Source of the DNA: Candidatus Nanoarchaeia archaeon
GTDB taxonomy: Archaea > Nanobdellota > Nanobdellia > Woesearchaeales > SKIA01
Length of the DNA stretch: 64,000 nucleotides
Assembly (NCBI GenBank): GCA_028279685.1
Contig: JANQNG010000038.1
Location: 27,030 to 91,029 of the forward strand
Reading direction: 5' to 3'
This document shows positions 42,762 through 61,943 of the stretch, piece by piece. Below the pieces are notes generated by a model. It worked only from the letters and a program-made list of their open reading frames with translations. It was not told the origin of the DNA and did not search any database. A program made the position numbers and the translations under genes. Position 1 is the first letter of the stretch; every line of letters starts with the position of its first letter.

Positions 42762-42765
42762 TAAA

Positions 42766-43635
42766 ATGAAAAAAACAATTATTATTTCGAATGTTATAGA
42801 CGGATCTGAGTCCTTTATGGGAGTTCATGGTTCTTTTCCCTGTGGATCAACACAAGAGGAAAAAGATAATACTGTAAGCATTATGCGTGCTTCTGATTTT
42901 ATATTATATTCTAATGATTTGCATCCAGATGATGCTAAAGAATTTAGTATTAATGGAGGCTTATATAATGCGCATGATCAAGTAAAACCCGAAAGATTTG
43001 ATTCTGATTATGTCATAGGATTTGATCTAGAAGGAAATGAAATACAACTCGGCAATAAAAGTGTTAGTCCGCGATTAGAAGAGACATTGCAACAAGCTGT
43101 TGAAGGAAGAACTGCAGGAATATATGTTCCTAGAGAAGTGTATTTTCAATCAGAACATGAAACGCCGTTCTGTACTCCGAAAGATATTGAAGAAACCTAT
43201 AAGGAGCGTATTATTACTTCTGAAGAATTTGTTGAAGGTTCATTTGATTATATTATAGCGCCAAAGAAATATTTTGATGCGACGAGAACAGATAGCGACA
43301 GATCTCTTCCAAAAGGGTCTTTCGAAGGTGTTCCTGATCAAAATATGAATATCTATTCATTGTTGGAGGAGAGGTTTCCTTCTGATGAATATGAATTAGT
43401 TTTTGTTAATACAGGAGTAGTTGAAGGTATTTGCAGATTGCACACTTCTATTGGACAAAAACAAATGTTTCCTGATGCGAAGATAATCAATATTTCTGAT
43501 GCTACAACGCCTCTTGCAGGGATTGGACTAGGTTATGAAACTGCAGAACAGTCTCGAGATGCTTGTGAAAGGGTGTGTAAAGATATTGGCATTGAGTATA
43601 TGAGTACAGAAGAGTTTTTGGAGGCATACAAATAA
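42766..43635 (+). CDS. Divergent nicotinamidase / isochorismatase-like hydrolase
   Basis: YSNDLHPDDAKEFSINGGLYNAHDQ resembles the metal-binding DxHP..F..GG..H motif; catalytic Cys region VFVNTGVVEGICRLHTSI. Confidence 0.65.
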   Translation: MKKTIIISNVIDGSESFMGVHGSFPCGSTQEEKDNTVSIMRASDFILYSNDLHPDDAKEFSINGGLYNAHDQVKPERFDSDYVIGFDLEGNEIQLGNKSVSPRLEETLQQAVEGRTAGIYVPREVYFQSEHETPFCTPKDIEETYKERIITSEEFVEGSFDYIIAPKKYFDATRTDSDRSLPKGSFEGVPDQNMNIYSLLEERFPSDEYELVFVNTGVVEGICRLHTSIGQKQMFPDAKIINISDATTPLAGIGLGYETAEQSRDACERVCKDIGIEYMSTEEFLEAYK

Positions 43636-44165
43636 TGAAAACTAAACTTAATCCATTGGAGCTTGGAGATCTCGATAACATCATGTCTTGGGTTAATGAT
43701 GAAGAAGTTATTGGAAGATTTAATGGTTTTAATGACAACATAACTAGAGAACAAGAACAGAATTATTTGGAAAAGATGATTGCTTCCGAAACTGATAAAT
43801 TGTACTCTATCTCGACGGAAGATGGAGTATATTTGGGACAAGCAGGAGTTCATGAAATAGAAGCAAATAATGATGGAAGGCTTGCATTGATTATAGGCAA
43901 TAAAGAATACTGGAATAAGGGATGTGGTCAAAGTGCAATGGAAGGATTGCTTGACAAAGCATTCAATGAACTAAAGCTAGAAAGAACTTGGCTTGTTGTT
44001 CTTGAACAAAATAAGAAAGCCAGACATATATATGAGAAAATTGGCTTTCAACAAGAAGAGATTCTGAAAGATTACTATCAATTGGGTGATCAAAAACTCA
44101 ATATGATCAAGATGAGTTTGCATAGAGAAGAATATGCGCGAGGTGAACCTACGTGGAACGAATAA
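43635..44165 (+). CDS. GNAT family N-acetyltransferase (RimJ/RimL type)
   Basis: LALIIGNKEYWNKGCGQSAMEGLLDKAFNELKLERTWLVVLEQNKKARHIYEKIGFQ. Confidence 0.85.
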   Translation: MKTKLNPLELGDLDNIMSWVNDEEVIGRFNGFNDNITREQEQNYLEKMIASETDKLYSISTEDGVYLGQAGVHEIEANNDGRLALIIGNKEYWNKGCGQSAMEGLLDKAFNELKLERTWLVVLEQNKKARHIYEKIGFQQEEILKDYYQLGDQKLNMIKMSLHREEYARGEPTWNE

Positions 44166-45052
44166 AACTACCATATATGAATCCTGAAAAAGTAAGTCGA
44201 GAAATAGGAGACTTTGTTGTGGATACAGCGAAGAAAGTCGGTTCAACAGGATGTGTTATTGGATTATCGGGAGGAGTTGACTCGACGACAACTGCAGCAT
44301 TGATCAAGAAAGCATTTGATGCTTACAATGCAGAGCACGATGATAAGCTAGAACTTGTCGGTTATATCTTGCCATCAAGCACTAATAACCCAAAAGATGC
44401 CGAAGATGGTGTTTCAGTAGCAAAAAGATTGGGCATACGATATGAGACGCAAAGCATTGAACCTATTGTTGAAGCATACAAAATAACTAATTCTGAAGCG
44501 GTTGAAAGTTTATTCCACAAAGGAAACTTGATGTCAAGGATAAGAGCGAATTATCTTTCTACAAAAGCAGCAACTGAACAAAAAACACTTTCTGGCACAG
44601 GCAACAAAGACGAAGACTTTGGCATAGGATACTACACGTTATTTGGTGATGGTGCCGTGCATATGAGTCCTATAGGCAATCTCTCGAAGAGACTTGTCAG
44701 ACAGATGGCGACTTATTTAGGATTTGAAGACTTGGCAAACAGAACACCAACAGCAGGATTACAGCCTGATCAAACAGACTTTAGTGATCTTGGCTATGAT
44801 TACGATGTTGTTGAATTAGTTACAGAAGGATTCCATCAAGGATTTACTGCAGATGAACTTGATGTGCATCCTCAGGTGAAACCTTTGATTGAACAACAGA
44901 TAGATCAATACAAAGAAATGTTTGGCAAGAAGAAATTCAACAATGTCGGTGAAGTGATTGACGATATTTATCATAGACATTACAATATAGCGATGGCAAA
45001 AGTGGAGATCATTCATCCGCCTACTGCAGAAGTAACAATAGAATACAGGTGA
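44153..45052 (+). CDS. nadE: NAD+ synthetase (ammonia-dependent type)
   Basis: PP-loop CVIGLSGGVDSTTTAALI, GTGNKDE, GYYTLFGDGAVHMSPIGNLSKRLVRQMA. Confidence 0.95.
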   Translation: MERIKLPYMNPEKVSREIGDFVVDTAKKVGSTGCVIGLSGGVDSTTTAALIKKAFDAYNAEHDDKLELVGYILPSSTNNPKDAEDGVSVAKRLGIRYETQSIEPIVEAYKITNSEAVESLFHKGNLMSRIRANYLSTKAATEQKTLSGTGNKDEDFGIGYYTLFGDGAVHMSPIGNLSKRLVRQMATYLGFEDLANRTPTAGLQPDQTDFSDLGYDYDVVELVTEGFHQGFTADELDVHPQVKPLIEQQIDQYKEMFGKKKFNNVGEVIDDIYHRHYNIAMAKVEIIHPPTAEVTIEYR

Positions 45053-45058
45053 ACGTAC

Positions 45059-45565
45059 ATGCCAGCAGCTAATCAGATTCAAGAACAGAGAAACCCAATA
45101 CCAACCACAGATATTATTATCGAATATTGTGGAGAAGAAAGACCTATTTACGTTGCTGGCGGAATAGTTCCTCCTGAATCAAAGATAAACGGAAGTATTG
45201 TACTCGTTAAAAGGAAAAACCCTCCACATGGATGGGCATTACCAGGAGGATTTCATGACTTTGGTCTTTCAGCAGAAGAGAACGCTATTAAAGAAGCAAA
45301 AGAAGAAACAAATCTTGATGTGATTCTTGAATCTCCTGAAAAACCGTTTCTTTTCAAATCAAAACCTGATCGTGATCCAAGAGATCATATGATCTCTGCA
45401 GTGTATATCGGTAAAGGCTATGGTGTTCCTCGAGGAGGAGATGATGCAAAAGAAGCAAAACTATACACTATAGATGAGGTGAAACAACTCATAAGAAATA
45501 ATGAGCTTGCGTTTGATCACGCAGAGATACTAGAAGCATATTTCAGGCATAGGGGGTACAACTGA
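45059..45565 (+). CDS. Nudix hydrolase
   Basis: GGFHDFGLSAEENAIKEAKEETNLDV Nudix box. Confidence 0.85.
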   Translation: MPAANQIQEQRNPIPTTDIIIEYCGEERPIYVAGGIVPPESKINGSIVLVKRKNPPHGWALPGGFHDFGLSAEENAIKEAKEETNLDVILESPEKPFLFKSKPDRDPRDHMISAVYIGKGYGVPRGGDDAKEAKLYTIDEVKQLIRNNELAFDHAEILEAYFRHRGYN

Positions 45566-46182
45566 TGAGTTTAGGAAGAGCAGGATTCATAGGACGATTT
45601 AAACCTTTGCATGTAGGAGGAGCAAGAGTGCTTGAGGAAATATGTAAAAATACGGATCATTTGATAATAGGTGTTGGTAGCAGCAACAAATATGATCTTC
45701 GCAACCCTTTTACAGCAGAAGAATCTCAGAAGATGATTGATGTATTTCTTTCTCCAAAATTTTCAAATTATTCATTTATTCATATTCCTGATTTTGGGCA
45801 TATTCCTCAATTTCAAGATGGGCAGAAATGGAAAGAATATGTGAAGAGTAAATTCAAGGACCTAGATTATTTTGTAGCAGGAAATAGTTATGTGAAATCA
45901 TTGTTAGCTCAAGATTACAAAGTCATTGATGCTCATACGTTACTTCATGATGATCAGAAGATTCGCTTGAGTGCTACGCAAGTAAGAATTGCCATGGCAA
46001 GAGGCCGAGATTGGCGGAACTTAGTTCCTGAATCTACGGCACAATATATTGCAGAACATAAACTTGATGATCGTTTCCGACGAGAATTTGGATTAGCAAC
46101 AATAGCTTTAGCAGCAGGATATGATTTAGCTACTGCTGATTCTTTTGATGCTGAAAAAAAGTACGTAATGTCTGGAAAATGA
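45565..46182 (+). CDS. NMN adenylyltransferase (NadM-like), variant HxGH motif
   Basis: GRFKPLHVGG and RLSATQVRIAMARGRDWRNLVPESTAQYI. Confidence 0.8.
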   Translation: MSLGRAGFIGRFKPLHVGGARVLEEICKNTDHLIIGVGSSNKYDLRNPFTAEESQKMIDVFLSPKFSNYSFIHIPDFGHIPQFQDGQKWKEYVKSKFKDLDYFVAGNSYVKSLLAQDYKVIDAHTLLHDDQKIRLSATQVRIAMARGRDWRNLVPESTAQYIAEHKLDDRFRREFGLATIALAAGYDLATADSFDAEKKYVMSGK

Positions 46183-46209
46183 AAAAAAGAACCATGGAGG
46201 TGGTAAAAA

Positions 46210-47193
46210 ATGTATAGTTGGGGACCTAATACAAGTGATTGGCATGGTAGAACAAATTATAATTATAGTTCTGAGAATGCACCCTATTTGGACGAACTTG
46301 CAGCAGAATCTAGTTCACGGGGTGAAAGAACCTATTCAAGGAGAACTTCACCAGATGTCATTGTAAAAACAAAAGATAAAACGATAAAAACAGAAAGTGA
46401 AAATCCTATTGTGGTAGGTATTGATGTGACAGGGAGTATGTCAAGATGGCCTGCGGAGATTTTTGATCGTCTTCCTTTGATGTATCAAACATTATCGCAA
46501 TATAGGCAAGATGTTGAAATTAGTTTTGGCGCTATTGGTGATGCATATTCTGATCGATATCCTTTACAAGCAAATGATTTTGGTCATGGGATAGTGCTTG
46601 AAGATCATGTGAATGCTTTATGTCCTGAAGGTGGTGGAGGTGGACAAGTCAGTGAGACATATGAATTATTTGCATACTTTATGCTTGAAAAGTGTAAGAT
46701 GTCTAATGCACAATCTCCATTTATGTTCATTTTTGGAGATGAGAAATTCTATAATGAAGTGAATCCTGCACAAGTAGAACATTATATTGGAGACAACCTC
46801 GAAAATCCAATGGCTTCAGGGAAAGTCTGGCAGAAATTGATAGAGAAATTCAATTTGTATTTCTTGCAGAAACCTTATGGAAGTGGACATGATAGACGCA
46901 TGACTGCTGAGATCAAACAACATTGGGCAAATGCGATTGGAGAACAACGAATTGTTGATCTGCCAAATGCTGAACGTGCTGTTGATATTGCAATAGGAAT
47001 TGTAGCGAGACATTGGGGACAGTATGGTGATTTCAGGGAAAATCTCAGTGCAAGACAAAGCGATGAAGTAGTTAGGAATCAAGTCCATGACGCAGTTCGT
47101 GATGTTCGAGAAGATGTTGCTGAAAGCGTTGATGCTGTTGCTTCTGCTTCAGAAAAACCAATTTCTCTACATGAAAAATACGGGGAGAGATAA
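46210..47193 (+). CDS. von Willebrand factor A-like protein
   Basis: MIDAS-like PIVVGIDVTGSMSRWP; FMFIFGDE. Confidence 0.65.
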   Translation: MYSWGPNTSDWHGRTNYNYSSENAPYLDELAAESSSRGERTYSRRTSPDVIVKTKDKTIKTESENPIVVGIDVTGSMSRWPAEIFDRLPLMYQTLSQYRQDVEISFGAIGDAYSDRYPLQANDFGHGIVLEDHVNALCPEGGGGGQVSETYELFAYFMLEKCKMSNAQSPFMFIFGDEKFYNEVNPAQVEHYIGDNLENPMASGKVWQKLIEKFNLYFLQKPYGSGHDRRMTAEIKQHWANAIGEQRIVDLPNAERAVDIAIGIVARHWGQYGDFRENLSARQSDEVVRNQVHDAVRDVREDVAESVDAVASASEKPISLHEKYGER

Positions 47194-48104
47194 TGACGAT
47201 AAGCGCAATTGTGACCGTACCTCCGTACAGTCCTTTTATTGAGGAAGTGGCAAGACATCCCATAGTGAGTGGGCTTCGCTTAAACACAGTGATGCCTACG
47301 AAAGGGTCTTTAGAGGATGTGATCAAACATTTACAAGATGTTGCTGGAAGCAAAGATATCTGGATTGATCTTAAGTGCAGACAATTGCGTGTTGCAGACT
47401 ATGGAGTTCCTCCATTTACAGAGATTACACTGACTCATCATATTACTGTTGATACTCCTGTCAAAGCATATTTCTCTGACGGTAAAGAGATTGCTACTGT
47501 TCTTGCTATTGACGGAAAAAGGCTTATTATGCAGGAGGGTCCAAAGCGTGTCATAGGTCCTGGTGAGTCAGTAAATATTTTACATCCTTCACTACAGATT
47601 GAAGGGTATTTTACCGATACTGACAAACAGTATATTGATGCTTGTGTCAATTGTGGTCATCATCAGTATATGCTTTCTTTTGTTGAACAGCAGCAAGATA
47701 TTGATCAATTAAGAACATATGATCTTGATGCAGAAATTGTTGCAAAAATTGAATCAAAAAAAGGTTTGGTGTATACTAAACATAAAAATAATGATGTTCG
47801 ATTGATGGCTGCAAGAGGAGATCTCTTTATCGAAGCAGGTATGCCTCACAAAATCATTCGTGCAATGGAAGATATCTATTATGCTGATGCTTCTGCTATT
47901 GCTGCTTCCAGATTATTCAGTTCATTATCAAGAAGTCTAGAACCTTCTTGTGCAGATATTGGAGATGTTGATAATCTATTGCGCATGGGCTATAAAACAG
48001 TAATGTTTGGTGATGAGATATGTATGCAAAGAGATTCTATTATATCAGGGTTGAATCTGTTTCAGGCAATAGCTGAGCCTTATCAAGGAGGGAGAAGATG
48101 GTGA
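47193..48104 (+). CDS. Short pyruvate-kinase-like protein
   Basis: LRLNTVMPTKG, IWIDLKCRQLRV, EIVAKIESKKGLVY, LMAARGDLFIEAG align with PK motifs. Confidence 0.65.
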   Translation: MTISAIVTVPPYSPFIEEVARHPIVSGLRLNTVMPTKGSLEDVIKHLQDVAGSKDIWIDLKCRQLRVADYGVPPFTEITLTHHITVDTPVKAYFSDGKEIATVLAIDGKRLIMQEGPKRVIGPGESVNILHPSLQIEGYFTDTDKQYIDACVNCGHHQYMLSFVEQQQDIDQLRTYDLDAEIVAKIESKKGLVYTKHKNNDVRLMAARGDLFIEAGMPHKIIRAMEDIYYADASAIAASRLFSSLSRSLEPSCADIGDVDNLLRMGYKTVMFGDEICMQRDSIISGLNLFQAIAEPYQGGRRW

Positions 48105-49084
48105 ATAAATCGTCGCTAGAACTTGAGCAAACATTGAACAAGTGCAATATTCAAGATTCCACAGAACATCTGCTTGAGAAAATTGAAACAATTAACAGAC
48201 TTAAACAGGAAAAGAATGCAGTCATCTTAGCGCATTATTATATGAGAGACAGCATAAAAATAGGAATAGCAGATTATGTGGGTGATTCTCTTGACTTAAG
48301 CAAATCTGCAATGAGGACTGAAGCAGATCTTATAGTGTTCTGTGGTGTTGATTTCATGGCAGAGACTGCAAAGATTCTCAATCCTCATAAAAAAGTCATT
48401 CTACCGAGCAGAGAAGCAGGTTGTTCATTAGCAGAAAGTATAACGGCAGAAGATGTGAAAAAACTGAGAAAAGATTATCCTGATGCTGCAATCGCAACAT
48501 ACATCAACACAACTGCGGATGTTAAAGCAGAATGTGATGTTTGCGTAACATCTGCTAACGCCCCTAAAGTTATCTCGAGACTTCCCAACAAAAGAGTAGT
48601 ATTCATTCCGGATAATTATATGGCAAGAAATCTGGAGAACGAGATTGATAAGGAAATTATCTTCTGGGATGGAACTTGTGTTGTTCATGAACAGTTCAAT
48701 CAGCATTACTTTAGGGAATTCAGAAGCAAAGTTCCTGGTTTGAAAGTTTTGGCGCATTATGAATGTGACCCTTCTACTATTGAAGCTGCTGATATGCATG
48801 GAAGTACGAGTGACATGAGGAGGTATGTTGGAGAGACAGATGCAGATGCGTATCTTCTTGCTACAGAATGTGGTTTAGCATCCACTATTATTGAAGATCA
48901 TCCTGAGAAGAAAATCATAGGACCTTGTATGATCTGTCCTTATATGAAGGAGATCACGATTGATAACACCCTTCATGCATTGACTGATGAAAAACCAGAA
49001 ATCACTATTTCTGCATATACTATAGATAGGGCTAGAATCTCGTTGGAAAGGATGTTCGCTTTAGGTGATTCGAATGAAAGATAG
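48098..49084 (+). CDS. nadA: Quinolinate synthase
   Basis: VILAHYYM...GDSLDLSKSA, FCGVDFMAETAKIL, SREAGCSLAESI, YINTTADVKAECDVCVTSANA, ECGL, GPCMICPYMKEIT. Confidence 0.95.
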   Translation: MVNKSSLELEQTLNKCNIQDSTEHLLEKIETINRLKQEKNAVILAHYYMRDSIKIGIADYVGDSLDLSKSAMRTEADLIVFCGVDFMAETAKILNPHKKVILPSREAGCSLAESITAEDVKKLRKDYPDAAIATYINTTADVKAECDVCVTSANAPKVISRLPNKRVVFIPDNYMARNLENEIDKEIIFWDGTCVVHEQFNQHYFREFRSKVPGLKVLAHYECDPSTIEAADMHGSTSDMRRYVGETDADAYLLATECGLASTIIEDHPEKKIIGPCMICPYMKEITIDNTLHALTDEKPEITISAYTIDRARISLERMFALGDSNER

Positions 49085-49572: not shown

Positions 49573-50112
49573 ATGGGAAGTTACGGTACAGGAGAGTTAA
49601 GCGCTGCTCCTCGAAGACGGAGAAGTTCTCCAGGTTCTTCAGGAGGGGGAGGACGTTCTTCGCGGAACACTACGCCTCCAGCGCCAACTGAAGAACCAGA
49701 GCCAACACCAACAACAGTGAGTGCCAACTATGACCCTGATTTGAAGACTGTTGTGGCATTGGGTGGTGGGTTGACGCCTGACAGGATTGTACAACCTATA
49801 CCAGAAGAGATACGGGATCAGAACCTTTCACATGTTGTGAAGTATCTCATGGGTGATGAAGTTGCATCAAGACCAGAAGATAGAACAATAGTTGATGCAG
49901 TGCAAGAAAGAATGGAAGCACCTGACTATAGAATTATTGTCAATGATGCTTTGAATCTCGGCAACGAGAGAATGCAGACACCCTTGGTGCAATATCTAAT
50001 CCAGAAGACGCAGCAAGGAGAGGACGGGGAACTCAAATACAACTTTGCGGATATTGCCATTGTCAGTCATGACGAAGGCGGAAAACCGTATAGCTTGGAA
50101 GAAAAATTGTGA
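49573..50112 (+). CDS. Low-complexity N-terminus + small domain; candidate ubiquitin-like or accessory protein of the cassette
   Basis: ATG 49573 with SD GGAGGGA; position first in E2-JAMM-E1 operon; internal GG near C-terminus (SHDEGG-KPYSLEEKL). Confidence 0.5.
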   Translation: MGSYGTGELSAAPRRRRSSPGSSGGGGRSSRNTTPPAPTEEPEPTPTTVSANYDPDLKTVVALGGGLTPDRIVQPIPEEIRDQNLSHVVKYLMGDEVASRPEDRTIVDAVQERMEAPDYRIIVNDALNLGNERMQTPLVQYLIQKTQQGEDGELKYNFADIAIVSHDEGGKPYSLEEKL

Positions 50113-50145
50113 TTTTTTTTACTTTTCTTCCATGAGGTAAACACA

Positions 50146-51669
50146 ATGATTCGGCTGCAAACACCATATCTTCTAACCCTTGATACCCCTTTAGTTATTT
50201 TTAATAACAGGTTGTTGCAGCCGAAAGCCCGTACCGATGATAACGATAACTATGCGGAATTCTATTCAACAAAATTTGCCTTGGAAGAGATTGTCACACC
50301 AAAAAAACTTGAGGATCTCTTCTTTAGGCACAATTATGATACGGTTCAGCGATATCAAGAAGAATTTAGCAAGTCATTTTGCGATCATGAATTTCAATCA
50401 AAGGAAGCACTTGCAGAAAATTTGAGACAAAACAGAGTTCTTTCATTAATTGTCGAGAAGATATTGCCCATATTAACAGCAGATAGATTAGAAGGGAGAA
50501 TAGAAGATATCATCAATGAAGACAAACCTGTTGAGGAAGCATATGAAGGCATTCCTCAACAAGAGGTAGAGATACCTCGTGAGGTGATGCAAGAGGTTCG
50601 CAAACTTCAGAATCGATTGATCAGAGATGTTGAGAACGAATATCAGCAATATCGTCTTGAAGGTGTTTCTAATACTGAGAGTCAAGTGAATGATCAGATT
50701 GCTGCGATACTCCAGCCAACGCTGAGGAGAAAGGCATCATTTCCATGGCTTCATGAAAATTCTGTTTTAGAAGAATTGCTGCAAGGCAATAACCTTATGA
50801 TTATTGATGACAAAACATATTTTCTTGAAACAATCCCTGAATTTATTTTCTATTTCGAAAAAGGACTCTCCGATACGTTATATGCTGCTATTGACAGATT
50901 TTCAAACACGAAAAGTCCTGAATCGATAGTTCAATATTTGGAAGAAAATAAACAACATGTTGATCATAAATATTTTTCAAGAATTATTAATAAAATAGAA
51001 GGAAGCAAACTCAAAATTCATGGAGAATATTTTTTGCCTATTCTTGATGGAAAGATTAATGATCTTCGCAGGAGATATAAGAAACTTATTGAAAAGAGCA
51101 TCAAAATAGATGCTATCGAGCATAATGAATATCAAACAAGAATGCTCTATGAACTTTCGCAAGAAAAAAGAAGGCTGGAGCGGCTTGCACAACAATCTGA
51201 TTTTGAGAGAAACGGTGCAGGATTTCACAAAGGAGGAGGATCTTCGTATGTTGTCTATATTAAGACACCTCCCTATGCGTTGAAGAGTCCTCATGTAAGT
51301 GGTGCAAATAGATATGTTCCTTTTGATCCTGCAAAAATCGGTGTAAAAATAAAGCAAGTTGGTGATGGAAATAGATCAGGATTTGAAATAACAAAACCAT
51401 TTATTATGCATTCATACAGACATCCGTTTCTTAGTGATGCTTCTTCAGGAAAAGAAATTTGCCTAGGTGATTGGGGAACTCCTGGAGGACTTTCTCCCGA
51501 GCAAAAGGTACTAACCTATCTGAATCAGGGAAAAAAGACATTGATGATGGGGTATCGTTCAGGAAGCAATCCTTACATTAAGCTCCACAAAGAAAAATGG
51601 AGTAATTGGATTAGTCGTCAAGAGGTGGAAAGAAGGGGGCTTGTTGTCCTCAATGATTTCGGAGGCTGA
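50146..51669 (+). CDS. E2-like (UBC-fold) protein with long helical N-terminus
   Basis: EITKPFIMHSYRHPFLSDASSGKEICLGDWGTPGGLSPEQ resembles the E2 HPN...G.ICL....W.P catalytic region; candidate Cys codon 51460-51462; C-terminus NDFGG. Confidence 0.6.
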   Translation: MIRLQTPYLLTLDTPLVIFNNRLLQPKARTDDNDNYAEFYSTKFALEEIVTPKKLEDLFFRHNYDTVQRYQEEFSKSFCDHEFQSKEALAENLRQNRVLSLIVEKILPILTADRLEGRIEDIINEDKPVEEAYEGIPQQEVEIPREVMQEVRKLQNRLIRDVENEYQQYRLEGVSNTESQVNDQIAAILQPTLRRKASFPWLHENSVLEELLQGNNLMIIDDKTYFLETIPEFIFYFEKGLSDTLYAAIDRFSNTKSPESIVQYLEENKQHVDHKYFSRIINKIEGSKLKIHGEYFLPILDGKINDLRRRYKKLIEKSIKIDAIEHNEYQTRMLYELSQEKRRLERLAQQSDFERNGAGFHKGGGSSYVVYIKTPPYALKSPHVSGANRYVPFDPAKIGVKIKQVGDGNRSGFEITKPFIMHSYRHPFLSDASSGKEICLGDWGTPGGLSPEQKVLTYLNQGKKTLMMGYRSGSNPYIKLHKEKWSNWISRQEVERRGLVVLNDFGG

Positions 51670-51674
51670 TAAGA

Positions 51675-53513
51675 ATGGATTTAGACCTAAAAATATTGCA
51701 TGCATTAGAAGACAAAGAGGAAAGAGTTGATGAAACAGAGACGCTTCAGATAACAAGAGGAGCATTTACGAAAGATCATATCTTTGCGAAACTTGTCTCG
51801 AGGATTGCTGGAGGAGGAATGGAGTGTTATGCCTATTTGATTAAACCAAACGAAGCAATGGACGATATTGTTAGAGATATTCTTATTGCGCCTGACCAAG
51901 ACACCACTAGTTCACATGTTTGGGTAACGCCAGAAGGAGTCAAACAAGCAGGAGAAAATATTGCTGCGAGAAACTATGAACTCTTAGGATGGACTCATTC
52001 ACATGGTACTATGAGCACGTTTCACTCAAGCTGGGACATTGATAATTTCCGAACTATCCTACATGAGATCAGTCCACAAACAATGTTCAAGAAAGAGAAC
52101 GCATTATACAGATTAGATGAAGATAAGCTTTTTGTTGATAATTATCGTATCGAAGGAATCAAACCTTTGCAACGGAAAATTGATATTATCAAGAAAGTAG
52201 AGCGAAGGCCGTTTGCTTATAGTATTGTGGTTAATGATCATAATGAGTATTATGCAGAAGTCTGGACGAAGACCTTTGATCATGCAACAGGAAGATTTAA
52301 ACTTGACAATGCAAAGAATCCAAAGCTTGAGATTGTTGATGTCGATGATGATGTAGAGATTGATATTGCAGAAATCGAAGATGAGATCTATCAGAAAGTG
52401 CGCATTAATAGAAGAGATTTCACGAATGATCATAGAAGATATGAATCAAAGCAAGCTAAGGCAATTGCAAATAGATTCATCCATCACGCAGCACAATACC
52501 TTGCAAAAAATGGCGAGTATAAAAAATTAATAGTCACTATGCTCACAGAGGATGCTGAGGCATCGCGTTATCAGATGATAAAAACTGCAGAGAAATCTGC
52601 TGATGAGACCATTGAGGTCCCTGAGCAAAATAAAGAGGAGATTGTTGAAAATCTAGAAGGCAATCTTGAGAGGAGCGAATTCAGCAGATATCTTGATGCA
52701 AGTAAGAAGTTCAGGAGATTTGAGCTTGAGAATCTTATCTATCTCCGTACAATGGTCGATTTCTCTAATGCAGAGAAGAATGTTGCTGCAGAGGAACTTG
52801 TTGCAAAACAAGACGAAATTATTCATGGATATCAAGAAAAGGCCAAGATGCTGGAAGAATGTGCAGACATTGCAGCGAATGCAACGAGAGCTCTCTCAAG
52901 GTATGCTATGGAGGAGTTCACTGATTATAATAATAAGAAAGAACACAAATACAAGCGATTTATCAGCAGCATCATTGGCTACTTAGCTACTGAAAGAAAT
53001 TACAGTTTCGGAAAAGCATTGGAGAATAAGAAAAGGTTTAAGGTGAAGACTAAGAAGAGGCTCTATCTCAGAGAAGAGCGCATCAATATGTTCAATCAGC
53101 TAACAAGAGATCTCTACTATGATTGCATGAGAAACCCTGAAATGTATGAAACACAAAAAACATTTTTTACCGCATTTGCTAATGCTTACCTCAACAATAC
53201 TGGGCAGGTTGATGGATTGATTGAACAGCATTTGCTTGGAGATGTTGAGAGCGGGGAAAAGTATCAAGATGTGGCCTTTGTTCATCCGACTTATAACCTT
53301 TCTTCTGCTTCGGAATTGTATCAACAAAAGATTGTGGAAAGACCAAAGAAAGAAAAAGTGCCTAAGGAGATGCATACAGAGAAGAGCACGAAATCAACTG
53401 AGGAAAAGATTATCAAGGCAAATGAATATACGCCAATAGGAAAAGTGCAACCTTCTCGACGAGGAGGGATAGATCAATTTCTTCCTGCCTGGGCTAGGAG
53501 GTTGTTAGGATGA
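51675..53513 (+). CDS. JAMM/JAB (MPN+) metalloprotease with long C-terminal extension
   Basis: Exact HxH-x7-S-x2-D: HSHGTMSTFHSSWD; upstream ECYAYLIKP supplies the Glu. Confidence 0.85.
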   Translation: MDLDLKILHALEDKEERVDETETLQITRGAFTKDHIFAKLVSRIAGGGMECYAYLIKPNEAMDDIVRDILIAPDQDTTSSHVWVTPEGVKQAGENIAARNYELLGWTHSHGTMSTFHSSWDIDNFRTILHEISPQTMFKKENALYRLDEDKLFVDNYRIEGIKPLQRKIDIIKKVERRPFAYSIVVNDHNEYYAEVWTKTFDHATGRFKLDNAKNPKLEIVDVDDDVEIDIAEIEDEIYQKVRINRRDFTNDHRRYESKQAKAIANRFIHHAAQYLAKNGEYKKLIVTMLTEDAEASRYQMIKTAEKSADETIEVPEQNKEEIVENLEGNLERSEFSRYLDASKKFRRFELENLIYLRTMVDFSNAEKNVAAEELVAKQDEIIHGYQEKAKMLEECADIAANATRALSRYAMEEFTDYNNKKEHKYKRFISSIIGYLATERNYSFGKALENKKRFKVKTKKRLYLREERINMFNQLTRDLYYDCMRNPEMYETQKTFFTAFANAYLNNTGQVDGLIEQHLLGDVESGEKYQDVAFVHPTYNLSSASELYQQKIVERPKKEKVPKEMHTEKSTKSTEEKIIKANEYTPIGKVQPSRRGGIDQFLPAWARRLLG

Positions 53514-55012
53514 GTGAGGATCTCGAGCATCTTATGAACAGGTATAATAGGCAGGAACTTATTGCAGGTTGGGATCAGTCTAAATTAGAAAATGCTTCTA
53601 TAGCAATTATAGGCACAGATATTCTTGCGAACTTTTCAGCTATTACACTTGCAGCATTAGGATTTGGAGATATTGAGATCTATGGGCCTGGCTTTGTTAC
53701 AAGGAGTATGTTGACAAATTACGGAAAGAATAGAAACAATCCTGATTACAGTGAAGGATTCCTTTATTTTGATGCACATGCAGGAGATCCAAAAGCAGAA
53801 GTAATAGCATCATTTATCAAAAAACTTAACCCTCTCGTGGATGCATTCGGTGTCAATATAGATCTTTGCAGAGCAGAGAATAGGAATGTAATAGGCAAAC
53901 CAGATATTATTCTTGAAACAACAAATGATCCTGCCTCAAAAATTGTTGCAATAGAGTATGCAGCTCAACATAATATTCCTTTAGTGAGTATGTCCTCATC
54001 ATCAATGTATGCTGGTGTTGGGTTTTTTGATCCTAGATCAAACAGAGAAGATATGATGAAATTAATTGAGAATATTGTTTTTGCTGAGTTGAAGGGAATG
54101 CCACAAGGAACTACTACAAGTCAAGTGATTGCAGGAGTGGGTGTTGATGAGGTGAGAAAGAAGATTATGCCTTTAAGAAATGAACGTATTATAGAGGATA
54201 TTGTCGTTTATAATATGGATGCTGAGACGCGTTTTGAAAGAAACGGAACAAATCTTCCTCATAAGGCAGCTGATTTTAAAGAAAAAACAGTAGCAATGAT
54301 AGGAGCTGGTGCATTAGGAAACTTTGCAGGATTAGATCTTGTGCTCAATAACGTAGGACATCTTTATGTGGTTGATTTTGATGAGATCGAATCAACTAAC
54401 CTTAACAGACAAATATGGTTCTATGATGCTGTTGGTAGAAATAAGGCAGAAGCGCTTATAGAAAAATTAAGAAAAATTAATCCTCGCGTTGAGTTTAGTT
54501 ATGCAAAAGAAAGAATCATTCCTGATTCCAAGAATTTTTTCAAGAAGACAGATATAGATCTCATGATTGATACGGTAGATAATAACAAAACAAGAGCATT
54601 ACTTAATTATTTTTCCTTACGATATAAAATTCCGTTTATCAGCGGAGGTACTCGGCATAATAGCGGTCAAGCAACAATTGCTATTCCAGGAAAGACAGGA
54701 TGCCTCAATTGTCAGGCAGATATTGACAAGCTTGCACTTGACGGCTATCAACCGCACAGTTGTATTTATGCTCCAGAACCTTCAGTGATTACTTCAAATC
54801 AAATTGCTGCAGGATTTATTGGAGGAGAAGCAAGAACAGTATTGCAGCCTGATATATTTGGAGAACCAATTCACCATATTTTGAAATATGTTTCTGACGA
54901 AACATACAGGTTGGGTGTGCTTCCTTCAAATGGAGCATGTAATTGTCATAAAAATAGAGTGGAGCTCATGCACTGGACGGGAAAAATGAAACATCTTTAT
55001 GAGGGTGATTGA
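53510..55012 (+). CDS. Tandem ThiF/MoeB (E1-like) protein, degenerate N-domain + intact C-domain
   Basis: N: RYNRQELIAGWDQSKLENASIAIIGTDILAN; C: VAMIGAGALGN, VDFDEIESTNLNRQ, GRNKAEA, DTVDNNKTR, CLNC...HSCIYAPEPSV...CNCH. Confidence 0.88.
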   Translation: MSEDLEHLMNRYNRQELIAGWDQSKLENASIAIIGTDILANFSAITLAALGFGDIEIYGPGFVTRSMLTNYGKNRNNPDYSEGFLYFDAHAGDPKAEVIASFIKKLNPLVDAFGVNIDLCRAENRNVIGKPDIILETTNDPASKIVAIEYAAQHNIPLVSMSSSSMYAGVGFFDPRSNREDMMKLIENIVFAELKGMPQGTTTSQVIAGVGVDEVRKKIMPLRNERIIEDIVVYNMDAETRFERNGTNLPHKAADFKEKTVAMIGAGALGNFAGLDLVLNNVGHLYVVDFDEIESTNLNRQIWFYDAVGRNKAEALIEKLRKINPRVEFSYAKERIIPDSKNFFKKTDIDLMIDTVDNNKTRALLNYFSLRYKIPFISGGTRHNSGQATIAIPGKTGCLNCQADIDKLALDGYQPHSCIYAPEPSVITSNQIAAGFIGGEARTVLQPDIFGEPIHHILKYVSDETYRLGVLPSNGACNCHKNRVELMHWTGKMKHLYEGD

Positions 55013-55844
55013 CATGGGAGAAATGGATGCGATCATTGCAGGCATACGATCTTCATATGAAAAAACTAATATGACTGACGTTGATCTCGAGAGTATTCTT
55101 CATGAGCGTCCTGAAGTAAAAGTAGGATATCTGCTGCAGCATATGGATCCTGAATCAGAAAAACCGTATGCAATTAATTTCGATCCTGTAGAGACTTTAT
55201 TCCTCGACAAACTTGTTTCGGAAGAAGTGCTTAATGGTGAAATTGTTATGGATAAGAATGATTTCTTTAGAGGAATAGTGTTTCTTGATTATTTGACAAC
55301 AGTGGTGCTTGATGACTATGCTATTCTTAAAGATATGCATAATATCGCAGTTGAATTGGAAAATATACAAGAAGATCTTGATCCTGATCTTGAATTAGTA
55401 GTAAAATATTCAGGTATGTTTTATCTTTCCTATACAGGAAGAAGAATCATGAGGAATCAGATGGATGAAAAAGGATTGGAACGTTATCAAGTAAAAAATA
55501 AGCATTACGAGCCAGAATATGCTATTCTCAGAAAGATAGCACCTGTGTATGAAGCATTAGGCAAGATGGTTTGTGATCTTCCTAAGCATGATATAATTAA
55601 AGAGAAGCTTCCAGACATGCTCTATCTCTATGATATTAAAGCAGCTATCTTTGTTGATGCAATACTTGATTTTATTGAAGATGATGCATTAAAAGAGAAA
55701 GTTGTGACTAAATTCAGAGAAGGAGATTACTACAAGGCTTCAATGGTTGCCATCACAGGCATTAGCAAACAAGTTTCTAACACAACAATTGATGAATACA
55801 TAACGTCGCTTGTCGAGAACGGAGGAAATAATGATGGATCTTGA
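54999..55844 (+). CDS. Hypothetical protein of the Ubl-like operon
   Basis: 281-aa ORF overlapping E1 gene. Confidence 0.6.
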   Translation: MRVIDMGEMDAIIAGIRSSYEKTNMTDVDLESILHERPEVKVGYLLQHMDPESEKPYAINFDPVETLFLDKLVSEEVLNGEIVMDKNDFFRGIVFLDYLTTVVLDDYAILKDMHNIAVELENIQEDLDPDLELVVKYSGMFYLSYTGRRIMRNQMDEKGLERYQVKNKHYEPEYAILRKIAPVYEALGKMVCDLPKHDIIKEKLPDMLYLYDIKAAIFVDAILDFIEDDALKEKVVTKFREGDYYKASMVAITGISKQVSNTTIDEYITSLVENGGNNDGS

Positions 55845-57309
55845 AGAACTCTTGCATAATGGAGAGTATTGTGATCTTCTCTTAACAGAGGCGCGCACGT
55901 ATGGTGAAGAAGGGAGTCTTGAATCATTAAGAAAAGCATATGATAGTTTACAGGAGAAATTAACAATATCAGAGGATCAGCAATACTATCTCAAGGAAGT
56001 TGTAGGTTCTGCACATCTGCTGATGTTGGATCTTGAAGGAGCAGCAGAATATTTTGAAGGGAATCGGCTGAAAATGGAGAGGCTCAAAGGTGTTGCATTA
56101 TGGCTTGGTAATGATGCTCGACTAATCAAAAGAATTGCTCCTGAAAAGTATTCTGATTTCATCCGTGATATGGCTTTACCTAATGTCTGGATGGGAAGAG
56201 ATGAAAAAGGATTTTATCTTGATGAAGAGGAGCTTGATAGTATACTTAAAGATCTTCAGGAACAAGAAGTTGATACACAGCAAGCTCTTAAAGAAACGGT
56301 GCTTTCAATGGAGAGAAATGGACGAAAGAATATTCCTAAAAAACTGTTGCTTGCTTATTATGCAAACGATAAAGAGCTTTATTCTAAGGTATTTGCAGAA
56401 TATGAGCAAAAAAAGAACAGCAACAGAAAAAATATCGATAGCATAGTGCAGAACTATTGTGCATTGCATGATCTGCGGTTTATTAAAAAAATGCAGGAAG
56501 GAGATTATGATCCTTTTTTTCCAATAGCAAGCAATATGTATTTGGTTGAAAGAAATGGTGAAAAAGAAGTTTTCAAAGAGCATCTTAGATTATACACTGA
56601 TTTTTCAAGACACGATGGCTATAATAAAGAAAAAGAGATATATGAACAGTTCTCCGATGATAATATCATTGATTATCTAGGACATTGCAATGTTGATGGT
56701 ATTGAATTCTTGCGATTTAAAGTATTTGATGGCCTTGATCTCTCTGAATTCACAAAAGAGGAAATGCTTTTACCTTTTGATGAGACGCTCCGAATTATAA
56801 GAACGCATGCAGATGTGCTCGATTCTTTGCAGCAACAAGGTATTTTGTATCTTGATGTGAAAGATAAAAATGTAATGTACGATGGAAATGAAATGAAATT
56901 GCTTGATTTTGGCATGGCGCAGACATTCGACAAAGTTGATGCTTCCACTTTCGCTCGATCAGTGCTTTCTACTCCAGCATATATTCCTCCTGAATGGGGA
57001 TCTGTGTTCGTTGCTACAAGGACATCAGAGGTTTTTCAATTAGGCGTATTATTTCATCAAATGCTTACAGGAAAACATCCATTTGCCCATGTTGATTTTA
57101 CTGAAGGTGATGAGTACAGAGAATCGGAAATCATCAAGTTTGGATTATCGAACATATATAATGATTACAAAGCTCCGGAACAGCTTGCTTCACATCCTGA
57201 AATGGTATCGTTGCTTGAGCAGATGTTACATAAGGATCCTACGGAGCGTCCAACAGTAAAAGAGGTAACAGAAAGGATTGGAGATTATCTCCTTCAGCAG
57301 GTGATATGA
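55831..57309 (+). CDS. Eukaryotic-type Ser/Thr protein kinase with N-terminal helical region
   Basis: LYLDVKDKNVMY (HRDxKxxN-like), LLDFGMA, TPAYIPPEWG, EVFQLGVLFHQMLTGKHPF, DPTERPT. Confidence 0.85.
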   Translation: MMDLEELLHNGEYCDLLLTEARTYGEEGSLESLRKAYDSLQEKLTISEDQQYYLKEVVGSAHLLMLDLEGAAEYFEGNRLKMERLKGVALWLGNDARLIKRIAPEKYSDFIRDMALPNVWMGRDEKGFYLDEEELDSILKDLQEQEVDTQQALKETVLSMERNGRKNIPKKLLLAYYANDKELYSKVFAEYEQKKNSNRKNIDSIVQNYCALHDLRFIKKMQEGDYDPFFPIASNMYLVERNGEKEVFKEHLRLYTDFSRHDGYNKEKEIYEQFSDDNIIDYLGHCNVDGIEFLRFKVFDGLDLSEFTKEEMLLPFDETLRIIRTHADVLDSLQQQGILYLDVKDKNVMYDGNEMKLLDFGMAQTFDKVDASTFARSVLSTPAYIPPEWGSVFVATRTSEVFQLGVLFHQMLTGKHPFAHVDFTEGDEYRESEIIKFGLSNIYNDYKAPEQLASHPEMVSLLEQMLHKDPTERPTVKEVTERIGDYLLQQVI

Positions 57310-58481
57310 TGAAAAAAGCACTTTATTTGAATAAGTTCGGTATTATGCATAAAGGTCTTATTGAAGTAGTGAAGGATATTGAGCAAGCAGATGATGTTGA
57401 TGAGATCATATTAGGTATTTGTTCGAGCCAATATAACGATAAGGAAAAGAGCCCTTCGAAGGATTGGATTTACAATTGTTTAACTTGGGAAGAACGAAAA
57501 AAAATCATGGAAATTTCTCTACAAGGAGTAAAAAAGAAAATTCATTATGTTCCCCTTCCTGATTTGTATCCTATAGACAAATCAGTTCCCGAAAACAAAT
57601 GGATAGATGATGTCGTCAGGCGAACACCTGATTTTGACATCATCTATTCAGAACGTGATGTAGAAAGAGAATGTTTGGAGCATAAAGGTAAAGAAGTTCG
57701 CGATATTAAGAAGCATGTGTTGTTTACTGATCATTGCATTAGAGATAAAATGGCTAGAGATGAAGCATGGCAACCTTATTTTGATCCTGAAGCAGCAAAA
57801 TTATTAGAAGAGATTAACACACCTGTCCGTTATAAGATACTCTTTAGTAAAACTCCTAAAGTTATGGGAGATGTTGAATGGAGAACATTTGATCCGGGAG
57901 TTGAAGCACTAAAAGATAAAGTGCTTGGCATGACGTATTTCGATGAACGCCATAGTGTTGATCTTTATGTGTTATCTCTGGTTCGTTCTTCGATTAATAT
58001 GAAAGTTACTCAATCAAGTATTAAAATAAAGCATCTTGAGAGGGTTGACTATTCTAATGAATGGTGGAAAACAGAGCATTGGGAATTTCCTTTTTCCGCT
58101 GAGGATTTCAAGAAATTCTCGAGAGCAACAAGGTTTCCTCAGCTTGCTCTGGAAGGAGAGATTACACATGAAAAGTTCATAAAAGCAGTACCTGATTATC
58201 CAAATCCTTACGCAATGCTTGTTCCTGTGAGAAAACATCGTCATATGCGGCTTTTTGAACATAAAGGAAGAAGAATGGGTATAGAATTTATTAATTTGAA
58301 TGTTTTTGATAATGATTATGTCTCTCTCGGTGTTGAGGCAGAAAATGCTATCGATATGAAGAGAACCATGAATGAATTAGGATTAAGTATTTATGATCAT
58401 CGGAATTATATACAGTTTTTAGAGGAGAAAGCTATAGAAAAATATGGAGATGAAATATTTGAGAATATGTGGGTGAAATGA
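57306..58481 (+). CDS. NMNAT-like nucleotidyltransferase with degenerate active site + extra C-terminal domain
   Basis: ALYLNKFGIMHKGLIEVVKDI...DEIILGICSSQYN paralogous to the next gene; ~220-aa C-terminal extension. Confidence 0.6.
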   Translation: MMKKALYLNKFGIMHKGLIEVVKDIEQADDVDEIILGICSSQYNDKEKSPSKDWIYNCLTWEERKKIMEISLQGVKKKIHYVPLPDLYPIDKSVPENKWIDDVVRRTPDFDIIYSERDVERECLEHKGKEVRDIKKHVLFTDHCIRDKMARDEAWQPYFDPEAAKLLEEINTPVRYKILFSKTPKVMGDVEWRTFDPGVEALKDKVLGMTYFDERHSVDLYVLSLVRSSINMKVTQSSIKIKHLERVDYSNEWWKTEHWEFPFSAEDFKKFSRATRFPQLALEGEITHEKFIKAVPDYPNPYAMLVPVRKHRHMRLFEHKGRRMGIEFINLNVFDNDYVSLGVEAENAIDMKRTMNELGLSIYDHRNYIQFLEEKAIEKYGDEIFENMWVK

Positions 58482-59086
58482 TGTATAAGGCATTATATTT
58501 AGGAAGGTTCCAGGTTATGCATAATGGACATTTGTATATTGCTAAACATATTGATCAGACAGAAGATATAGAATCAATTGTGTTTGGTATTGGAAGTATG
58601 CAATATAATAGAAATAATAAACATCCTTTTCTTCCTAAAGTATTAAATCCATTTACATTTGAGGAACGTAAGGAAATGCTTGAAATAACTCTTAAAGAAG
58701 AGATCAAGAAACCATATGAACTTATTGGCATCAGGGATTTTCATGATTGTCCGAAATGGGCTGCACATATTGCTGACTTGACCGATGCGGAGATTGTCTA
58801 TACCACTTCACCGTCAGAGATTAAAGAGTTTGTTAAATTAGGGTTCGGGATACGTCCTACGCCTGTGAAAGATGAATTCCATGCACAGATTGTTAGAGAG
58901 ATGATTGCTAATGATAATGGTTGGAGAAAGTATATGCCTGAAGGAACAAGAAAATGGATAGAAGCTAATAATATGGATAAGGTAATTGCAGACTTTTACA
59001 AAGTACATTCTGATGAAATAGAAGAAGTGCATAAAATGCAAATTGAGAGGGGAGAAGCGCGATATGACCCAAACAAAAAATACTAA
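58478..59086 (+). CDS. NMN adenylyltransferase (NadM-like)
   Basis: ALYLGRFQVMHNGHLYIAKHI canonical GRFxxxHxGH; VFGIGSMQYNRNNKHPF. Confidence 0.8.
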   Translation: MMYKALYLGRFQVMHNGHLYIAKHIDQTEDIESIVFGIGSMQYNRNNKHPFLPKVLNPFTFEERKEMLEITLKEEIKKPYELIGIRDFHDCPKWAAHIADLTDAEIVYTTSPSEIKEFVKLGFGIRPTPVKDEFHAQIVREMIANDNGWRKYMPEGTRKWIEANNMDKVIADFYKVHSDEIEEVHKMQIERGEARYDPNKKY

Positions 59087-60107
59087 GCCAAAAATCATCT
59101 GTACATTAGGAACGACTACAGATAGCAAAGAAGTATTAGAGGAGATGGTGAAGCACGGTATGCAATGTGTTAGAATGAATACTGCTTATGCAACTATAGA
59201 AGAATATCAACAAAGACTTGCTATGGTTAGAGAAGTAGATCCTGACATTGAGGTTATGATGGATATTAAAGGTCCTCAGGTGAGGTTATTTGCTGATGCT
59301 AGCTATCCTATCAATGAAGGAGATGTTCTTATAACAGGATTCAAAGATGAGCCATTGCGATTTTCAAAGAATTTCTATAATGATATTGCTGTAGGCGACA
59401 CGTTGCTCATTGACAATGGAACTATTGAAACAATAATATCAAAAAAACAAGATAATAAGCTGCATCTTCGTGTTATTGATCCTGGAGAAGAAAGCATGCT
59501 TTGTAAGCAAAGAGGTGTTAATATTCCAGGAAAATACCTTAATGTTTCTAGACTTTCAAGAAAAGATTTGGAAGTTATTGATTTTGCTGTGCAAAATAAC
59601 GTCGATTATATTGCATTATCGTTCACAAGAAATTTTGAAGATGTCAACAATCTCTATGAAGTCATTGAGGAATCAAAAAAAGAATTGGGAAATACAAAAG
59701 AGATTGGCATAGAGCTAAAGATTGAAGATAAATTTGGTATGGAAAATCTTTCTGATATACTCACAAAATGTTATGAGAAGCAAATAAAAGTATCTGTTAT
59801 GGTCGCTAGAGGGGATCTTTTTGTGGAACTTCCTAAAGAAGAGTTGCCTTATGCGCAGGAGCGTATTGTACATATCTGTAAAGAATATCAAGTTCCGGTC
59901 ACTATAGGAACGGGTGTGCTTGAATCAATGCAGTATGAGTTTGAACCAACAAGAGCAGAAGTGATTGATGTGTATCAAGGATTACAGCAAGGAGTAGATG
60001 CGTTTATGCTTTCCGGAGAGACAAGTAACGGCCATGATCCTGCAGCAGTTGTGGCTATGTTGGAAAATGTTATTGAGAGATATAAGAGTGATACCTATGA
60101 TGGTTAG
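59064..60107 (+). CDS. Pyruvate-kinase-like protein lacking C-terminal domain
   Basis: KPKIICTLGTTT, MMDIKGPQVRLF, IELKIEDKFGM, VMVARGDLFVELP, GTGVLESM, DAFMLSGETSNG. Confidence 0.85.
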   Translation: MTQTKNTKPKIICTLGTTTDSKEVLEEMVKHGMQCVRMNTAYATIEEYQQRLAMVREVDPDIEVMMDIKGPQVRLFADASYPINEGDVLITGFKDEPLRFSKNFYNDIAVGDTLLIDNGTIETIISKKQDNKLHLRVIDPGEESMLCKQRGVNIPGKYLNVSRLSRKDLEVIDFAVQNNVDYIALSFTRNFEDVNNLYEVIEESKKELGNTKEIGIELKIEDKFGMENLSDILTKCYEKQIKVSVMVARGDLFVELPKEELPYAQERIVHICKEYQVPVTIGTGVLESMQYEFEPTRAEVIDVYQGLQQGVDAFMLSGETSNGHDPAAVVAMLENVIERYKSDTYDG

Positions 60108-61029
60108 GACAACAGTTGAAAAGGAGAGAATAATTGAGCCTATTTGCGATAGGTTAGCTGAGATGTTTGGTTATCGCATCACTTACGAAGAAATTCCTAA
60201 GACCTTCAGAAGAGTATTTCAACAGTATGAGGATAAGTTTTCAACAATTGAGATACATCATATGAAGATGGGTTATGCTGAGGAGATAGGAGATGTTGTG
60301 TATCAGGTGCTGAAACTTATCATGGTATCGGAGAGAATCTTGCTTGAGGAAAAACAGAAAAAACTCTATGATACATATAAGTCGAAGATTTCCTCATCAG
60401 GTTTTTCTGTTGATATTGATACGCTCTATCAGGATGCTATTGATATGATTGATGAAAAGATGATAGGGAATCTGGCTGATCATCTTGGCTGGAGACAATT
60501 TCCTAAACGTTTGACAACTGCAGCAAATTTTTTAGCAAATCAATATGTTTCATACATATCAAGGAGCATGCATCCTGAACTGAGTGGAGGAGCATATCAC
60601 ACCGCAGAGTATATAAAAAATGATAGGATTTCCGAGGAGACTGCGGAACTAATAGATATTCTTACCTGTCCAAGCAGAGTTTTAACAGGGATGAGCCTTG
60701 TGAATGATATGGAGAAGAATATGAAGCTTGCCGAAATGATTATCATGCATACGAAGTGTATTTACGGGAACCAATTTCATACTACAGTAAGTGGCTCAAG
60801 TTATTTTACAACACTTGATAAATTGCTGAAAGAGAAGGCAAGAAATGATATGACGCTCCAGGATGTGCTTGATTTTACCTTGTTTAAGATTCGGGGCAGG
60901 CAAGAACTGAATTTTATGGGCTATGTTGATAAAGAGGTAAAAAGAATATGCAAGCCACTAGAATATATGCTCGAAGCAGGTCTTGTTAAGGGAATTTATT
61001 CCAATAGTCTTGTAACACGAACAATATGA
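60095..61029 (+). CDS. Hypothetical protein
   Basis: In-frame ATG overlapping the PK-like gene end; long ORF. Confidence 0.55.
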
Positions 61030-61943
61030 TTTGTTAAGGTTACCATGCCGGTAACGGTTGCTGCGATCTTTGAACAAATGATATGTCTGCTATGATTTTC
61101 GATGTATTTTCGTATAATATTGAAGAGGTTGTTCTTTTCAACCCATGCTTCTTCTGCGAGAGAGGAAGACATTTGATAGAATGCAGTCATCGCGTTTTTG
61201 TAGAATTGTTCGAGGGAGGATAGAAGATCAACAAATTCTTTTTTTTGCGGCTTCTTTAATTCCAGAGAATGATTGGCAACAATTTTCACCCTATCTCCAA
61301 TTTTCTCGAGGAGCATATTGACTTCCCAATAACGGAGAACATCCAATTCAGTAAGATTGAGTGTGTCTAGAATTGTTTTATCTTGTTGTGCAGTCTTGAG
61401 AATTTTGATCAAGAGACCACTAAGTCTATTGACTTCTTTGTCACGGTCAATAATATGAGTAGGATCTTCTTCTTTTTTCGTTACTTCTTTAAGATCAATG
61501 ATCATAGATCTAATGATGTTGTCCATTCTTCGTATCACGAGTTTGACATCAACATCGTGGATGTCAAGAAAGCTTCGTGCTACAATTCTTTCTGAGGATT
61601 CATCAACAAGCTCTAAAGCAATATGAGAATTGATGTTTTCTTTTACTGATTTAACAACTTTGGGAAGGTTTTTCCCCTTGATAATGATGTGATTGAAGTT
61701 GTTCATATAAGCAGAAGTGATATCGTGCTGGATTTCTTTGTCTTGCTTGCCTTGTGTGCTGATCACCACATCCGCTTTTTCTAATGTTGTGGTGTTGGTG
61801 TCTGTTGTTATGATCAATTTATTTTTCTTTTCAGTGATATAGAGAAGATCGCCTGGCTTGAGTTTGTTCTTCTTAATCCAATCTTGAGGAACGGCAATGA
61901 CTAATGATGTGTGGCCGCTTTTGACAAGTTTTCTAATGTTCAT
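60996..61943 (-). CDS. AbrB/SpoVT + PhoU-domain regulator (paralog of 38386-39306)
   Basis: MNIRKLVKSGHTSLVIAVPQDWIKKNKLKPGDLLYITEKKNKLIIT; PhoU-like helices. Confidence 0.8.
   Translation of the reverse strand: MNIRKLVKSGHTSLVIAVPQDWIKKNKLKPGDLLYITEKKNKLIITTDTNTTTLEKADVVISTQGKQDKEIQHDITSAYMNNFNHIIIKGKNLPKVVKSVKENINSHIALELVDESSERIVARSFLDIHDVDVKLVIRRMDNIIRSMIIDLKEVTKKEEDPTHIIDRDKEVNRLSGLLIKILKTAQQDKTILDTLNLTELDVLRYWEVNMLLEKIGDRVKIVANHSLELKKPQKKEFVDLLSSLEQFYKNAMTAFYQMSSSLAEEAWVEKNNLFNIIRKYIENHSRHIICSKIAATVTGMVTLTNHIVRVTRLLE

Follow-up and report, generated by a model that had tools for sequence, protein, structure and literature searches.

Organization of the Locus

This analysis concerns a putative ubiquitin-like (Ubl) conjugation cassette that lies beside genes of nicotinamide adenine dinucleotide (NAD) metabolism in a Candidatus Nanoarchaeia archaeon (contig JANQNG010000038.1). 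The stretch analysed, hereafter the window, comprises 64,000 nt, and coordinates of window features are positions within it. The genome of the window (G000) is a 1.9-Mb draft in 80 contigs, and the named relatives within its order are Candidatus Woesearchaeota and Pacearchaeota. Nine plus-strand genes are packed over 49573-60107; the first three are spaced 33 and 5 nt apart, and from there on neighbouring genes overlap. Their order is Ubl, E2-like, JAMM protease, E1, X281, Ser/Thr kinase, two NMNAT-like proteins and a pyruvate-kinase-like (PK-like) protein. A first, sequence-only reading had placed the E2-like, JAMM and E1 genes correctly, including the 4-nt overlap of the last two, but had missed the gene of the likely modifier at 49573-50112, which would complete the set and whose start codon is the first position of the stretch singled out in that reading (49573-55012).

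The Likely Modifier and the E2-like Protein

The Ubl gene (49573..50112, plus strand) encodes a putative pro-modifier of 179 residues, counted from its ATG, with a glycine-rich disordered N-terminus, one ubiquitin-like domain at about residues 57-165, the pair Gly169-Gly170 (codons 50077..50082, plus strand) and a nine-residue tail, KPYSLEEKL. The AF2 model shows a compact core with a pLDDT of about 90, while both ends are disordered. When the model is compared with known structures (VIA), the best match has a Z of 6.9 and nearly all rows are ubiquitin-like folds, including the PI3K adaptor-binding domain, the USP15 UBL, TINCR, ISG15 and DIX. The EGG motif is invariant in four close homologues, in which the tail behind it varies; among 11 divergent homologues, from DPANN archaea and two bacterial bins, the first glycine never varies, and one homologue has lost the second. 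At 49 E1 loci, a Gly-Gly pair within the last 14 residues is found in 19/38 small genes located directly 5′ of the E2 gene vs. 9/221 other small genes (Fisher p = 4e-12). In Caldiarchaeum, a JAMM protease removes a nine-residue tail after the Gly-Gly of pro-ubiquitin, and KPYSLEEKL has the same length as that tail (PMC5654768). Model and conservation indicate that the product of 49573-50112 is likely the modifier, resembling a JAMM-processed pro-ubiquitin.

The E2-like protein (507 residues; 50146..51669, plus strand) consists of a long N-terminal region, in which two related β-hairpin/helix modules can be recognized by eye, followed by a C-terminal UBC-like domain. The fold of this protein had been named as one point on which the initial proposal would stand or fall, and a UBC-like region is indeed modelled: the top 50 VIA rows of the AF2 model are almost exclusively UBC/RWD folds, and the best match is the E2 domain of Cap2 from the cyclic-oligonucleotide-based antiphage signalling system (CBASS), with a Z of 6.0. 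The most conserved part of the protein is the segment that runs from the HPF motif (H426-P427-F428; codons 51421..51429, plus strand) to Cys439 (51460..51462, plus strand), the predicted thioester cysteine. This cysteine is invariant in two alignments, of 13 and of 11 relatives, and H426 and F428 are near-invariant; judged by fold and motif, the register of Cys439 appears to fit. The protein is named E2-like here because fold and motif support the assignment, canonical E2 homology being undetectable by sequence.

Family searches contribute little for these proteins. The Ubl, the E2-like protein and X281 have no significant family in Pfam, PADLOC, NCBIfam or PHROGs, and the Ubl and E2 profiles gave no significant match against PDB sequences. 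PF14461 found nothing in the window's own genome; the controls were without a match as well, hence this search is uninformative.

The JAMM Protease and the E1

The third gene (51675..53513, plus strand) encodes a JAMM/MPN+ protease of 612 residues with the JAMM domain at its N-terminus. The match to Prok-JAB (6.1e-5; this and the ThiF, Pkinase, PF00224, PF01467 and PF04014 matches below are to Pfam family models) falls slightly short of the Pfam cut-off. However, the exact JAMM motif reported from the sequence is intact and kept in all relatives, and E50, H108, H110, S118 and D121 are invariant across ten relatives.

The E1 (500 residues; 53510..55012, plus strand) matches ThiF at 6.1e-51 in two stretches, so that the pseudo-dimeric architecture proposed earlier is borne out by Pfam and by alignment. 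The C-terminal half retains every adenylation residue together with Cys418, whereas the N-terminal half is degenerate, a layout also seen in two-domain UBA1. The ATP, zinc and cysteine motifs, previously described as intact, are kept across 14 relatives: NLNRQ, K312, D357, the zinc-binding Cys398, Cys401 and Cys479, and Cys418 are invariant or near-invariant. Cys418 (codon 54761..54763, plus strand), the predicted thioester cysteine, is invariant in all 14. Against PDB, the E1 profile matches MoeB (4e-28), UBA1 (1e-25) and Cap2 (5e-18).

Conservation and Phylogeny

Four genomes of three families carry the full cassette: that of the window, L021 (G172), L022/L062 (G106) and L061, of which L061 and L062 bear the name Candidatus Woesearchaeota. 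The order Ubl-E2-JAMM-E1-X-kinase-NMNAT-PK is common to the window, L021, L022 and L061, although L022 has an extra 353-residue gene and a single NMNAT-like gene. Conservation of the cassette as a unit, on which the original proposal had also been staked, is thus observed in three families, and because three further genomes have the whole nine-gene block, its linkage goes beyond chance.

The E1s of the four full-cassette genomes form a clade (support 100/87). They sit within a large double-ThiF E1 family, which a 100/100 branch parts from MoeB/ThiF and from the Asgard sequences in the tree, these being E1-like ThiF proteins of Heimdallarchaeota only. The family comprises about 45 DPANN loci, a Chloroflexi bin and another bacterial bin, and its loci usually include E2-like and JAMM genes and often a small gene ending in Gly-Gly. 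Its distribution is patchy, with divergent sequences, multiple copies per genome and kinases near several loci. The window's genome itself holds two more E2-like/JAMM/E1 cassettes, L033 (G000:C61) and L040 (G000:C79); around one of these, several Ser/Thr kinases lie at distances of up to about 16 kb. In the two bacterial bins (L068, an uncultured bacterium, and L071, Chloroflexi) the cassette is of the same E1-E2-JAMM-Ubl type and the Ubl terminates exactly at the Gly-Gly; these occurrences may reflect either transfer or misbinning. No E1 relatives were found in viral contigs, and phage and plasmid records gave only partial ThiF matches to the E1.

Linkage to NAD Genes

Upstream of the cassette lies an NAD island (41128..49084, plus strand), which contains genes for NadC-like (41128), GNAT (43635), NadE (44153), Nudix (45059), NMNAT (45565), vWA (46210), PK-like (47193) and NadA (48098) proteins; downstream follow a nucleoside hydrolase (62092) and an NAD-kinase-like protein (62876). 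The earlier observation that a kinase and NMNAT-like proteins are co-operonic with the cassette and that NAD genes flank it holds in the window, and the NAD link is conserved in all four genomes. In 4/4 a NadE gene is found no more than about 10 kb from the cassette, and in three of these it is the sole strong NadE match. The islands of the four genomes variously hold genes for NAPRTase, nicotinamidase-like, NMNAT-Nudix, NAD-kinase-like, NadC-like and ADP-ribosylglycohydrolase proteins, the last of these in the island of L169; several of these calls rest on homology or on inspection by eye. By rough arithmetic, assuming a cassette of about 12 kb with 10 kb on each side, proximity to NadE would arise by chance in ~2-5% of cases per genome, or ~2e-5 over three families. 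Of six genomes, that of the window alone has NadA, which was therefore rejected as a member of the conserved link.

NAD islands also occur without a Ubl cassette. L171 and L172 have such islands, each equipped with a kinase, vWA and PK-like genes, which counts against the proposed tie to NAD metabolism in that the link is not obligatory; the cassette thus accompanies NAD islands as an accessory and does not form a fixed part of them. In L171 (7453-8220 and neighbours) and L172 (5704-6528 and neighbours) the order is NadE, Nudix, NMNAT, Ser/Thr kinase, vWA, PK-like; this presumably regulatory set recurs around genes of NAD synthesis.

Proposed Mechanism and Alternative Explanations

The cassette probably encodes a complete, reversible Ubl conjugation pathway that belongs to a DPANN-archaeal family and represents a sub-clade tied to NAD metabolism. 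For its reactions, activity, substrates, targets and purpose, as for the control of NAD, we infer the following scheme. The JAMM protease would trim KPYSLEEKL from the pro-Ubl and expose the Gly-Gly, whereupon the C-terminal half of the E1 would adenylate the Ubl and hold it as a thioester on Cys418. After transfer to Cys439 of the E2-like protein, the Ubl would be attached to target lysines under the guidance of the long N-terminal region and possibly of X281, and the JAMM protease would later remove it again. The most likely targets would be the co-operonic NMNAT-like and PK-like proteins and the NAD-synthesis enzymes, with the Ser/Thr kinase acting as a switch through which the supply of NAD(P) may be adjusted, or else a response to stress or viruses that is linked to NAD.

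Several observations weigh against this scheme. Foldseek alone is weak for the Ubl and E2 models (E > 0.04), the Z-scores of both folds are middling (Ubl 6.9, E2-like 6.0), and both models were built on alignments of 11 sequences. Comparison of the E2-like family with Asgard UQ_con E2s by hhalign indicates no homology (probability 0.2%), and a Pfam scan of the 507-residue protein finds no E2 family, or indeed any family. Furthermore, the full cassette is rare, a strong X281 match being found in 4/352 genomes of the order, and two of the four full-cassette genomes belong to one genus.

The main rival to NAD control is a role in stress or antiviral defence, which is possible, if unlikely. The Ubl would then tag viral or host proteins in the manner of Bil, or take part in a kinase-triggered response, and the NAD genes would restore depleted NAD. 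Known bacterial operons with Ubl, E1, E2 and JAMM components do include antiphage systems (PMC10449767; Bil/Bub, PMC13373217), the patchy, divergent and multi-copy E1 family with its nearby kinases is as expected of conflict systems, and the ADP-ribosylglycohydrolase of L169 points in the same direction. However, the genes nearby serve housekeeping NAD synthesis, among them the one strong NadE match of three genomes, and are not nucleases, effectors or toxins; in addition, relatives are absent from the viral contigs, and the phage and plasmid matches cover only part of the E1. It is quite doubtful that the divergent NMNAT-like nucleotidyltransferases are primed or gated by Ubl conjugation and then, together with the PK-like protein and under control of the kinase, make an NAD-derived signal molecule. 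Such a system would resemble type II CBASS in its working, yet rely on NAD chemistry and have a true Ubl as its modifier.

It is improbable that the Ubl serves as a sulfur carrier, whose thiocarboxylate would yield a thiolated NAD- or nucleotide-derived cofactor by the logic of MoaD/ThiS, the JAMM protease merely processing the carrier. The MoeB/ThiF-like C-terminal half of the E1 and neighbours in nucleotide metabolism would suit this role, as would the Ham1, ThyA-like and QueC-like genes that adjoin relatives of X281 as well as of the E2 N-terminal region. Yet the presence of an E2-like protein whose cysteine is invariant and whose model is UBC-like makes a sulfur carrier less likely, since such a protein would be superfluous; moreover, no rhodanese, cysteine desulfurase or PAPS reductase was recognized in the cassette by a Pfam scan. 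Very improbable, finally, is an ordinary Ubl cassette that happens to stand beside NAD genes with no functional tie. NAD islands without Ubl cassettes and Ubl cassettes without NAD genes are both common, but the same nine genes with a nearby NadE recur in three families, against the chance estimate given above. The conservation of the cassette beside NAD genes suggests, in favour of NAD control, that protein tagging controls NAD metabolism.

Comparison with Known Systems

The cassette had been taken for an undescribed system, and literature searches, of incomplete coverage, gave no account of it. With the Caldiarchaeum/Asgard operons (PMC5654768) it shares an archaeal setting, a pro-Ubl with a short tail after the Gly-Gly that a JAMM protease can remove there and would remove here, and an E1 together with an E2 or E2-like protein. 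The E2 of those operons is a canonical UQ_con protein, accompanied by a RING E3; in the window, a Pfam search of the cassette proteins recognized no RING domain among them. UQ_con (PF00179) is absent from G000 and G172 but found in the six Asgard genomes searched, and the E1s fall into separate clades (100/100, Heimdallarchaeota being the only Asgard rows). The type 6d operons of Iyer likewise have separate Ubl, JAB, E1 and E2 genes plus an extra protein, but their E2 lacks an upstream conserved His and has a His after the Cys, and kinase, NMNAT and NAD genes are not described for them (PMC1779556). By contrast, in the window the near-invariant His426 precedes Cys439, no invariant His follows it, and all three kinds of genes are present. 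Type II CBASS Cap2/Cap3 shares the E1/E2/JAMM logic and a nucleotidyltransferase-like protein in the operon; there, E2 and E1 are fused in Cap2 and the CD-NTase itself serves as the tag (PMC10449767). The window instead encodes its E1 and E2-like protein separately and has a gene dedicated to the Ubl, and its nucleotidyltransferases resemble NMNAT.

The SAMP/UbaA system of archaea also combines an archaeal Ubl modifier with a ThiF-type E1, but SAMP needs no E2, and the window E1 fails the UbaA model NF047750 (91.7 bits vs. a cut-off of 450). BilA is ISG15-like, with two Ubl domains, whereas only one ubiquitin-like domain is modelled in the window Ubl. To our knowledge, neither NAD nor kinase linkage is known for Bil/Bub. 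Shared with that system is the combination of Ubl, E1, E2 and deconjugase in an operon (PMC13373217).

This distribution adds to what is known of such pathways in archaea. Archaeal Ubl cascades with an E2 were previously known in Aigarchaeota, in Asgard archaea and in a small number of further lineages; here a separate family is spread through DPANN, with its own E1 clade, a sequence-divergent E2-like protein and several copies in some genomes, although minimal DPANN genomes should have little room for such cassettes. The family offers another reference point for the origin of E1-E2-Ubl relays before eukaryotes, and its NAD-tied branch would be a concrete, testable case of protein tagging that controls core metabolism.

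Further Genes of the Cassette and Its Surroundings

The Ser/Thr kinase (499 residues; 55810..57309, plus strand) matches Pkinase at 3e-31, and its catalytic residues K256, D349, K351, N354 and DFG are invariant in the alignment. Of the two NMNAT-like proteins, N391 (57306..58481, plus strand) matches an NCBIfam NMNAT subfamily at 1.8e-16, below the cut-off, and has a degenerate HxGH motif (HKGL), while N205 (58469..59086, plus strand; PF01467 1.1e-6) keeps HNGH and has an altered second ATP motif (FHAQ..R), both as judged by alignment. N391 also has a long C-terminal extension, the counterpart of which is encoded by a gene of its own in L021 and L061. The PK-like barrel protein (59043..60107, plus strand; PF00224 4.7e-66) is part of the cassette in 4/4 full-cassette genomes. 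An open reading frame at 59998-61029 overlaps the end of its gene and has no homologue at the other full-cassette loci.

Proteasome α and β subunits are present in 4/4 full-cassette genomes; degradation is therefore possible, though not specifically indicated. On the minus strand, 60996..61943 encodes an AbrB/MazE-type DNA-binding protein (PF04014 2.8e-6), likely a regulator, part of which is possibly PhoU-like. AbrB-type homologues lie near the cassette in all four genomes (L061 3022, L021 14765, L062 19811). An Rfam tRNA match at 37533-37650 (minus strand), for which ARAGORN in bacterial mode has no counterpart, spans 118 nt; it exceeds the length of a plain tRNA and possibly contains an intron.

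X281 (54999..55844, plus strand), a cassette partner of unknown fold, is conserved in the full-cassette genomes; its best NCBIfam match (0.00093, to a DsbC model) is far short of that model's cut-off. Shorter relatives of X281 occur in L162 and L166, two nucleotide-metabolism clusters in which they stand beside an E2 N-terminal region without the UBC part. This arrangement suggests that the N-terminal region and X281 may form an adaptor recruiting metabolic enzymes. The clusters (L162, G006:C27, 5086-12544; L166, G186:C41, 3350-14967) contain vWA, PK-like, Ham1, ThyA-like and QueC-like genes and two large proteins of unknown kind, with PfkB in L166. They could represent an unusual nucleotide or base-modification pathway that shares parts with the Ubl cassette.

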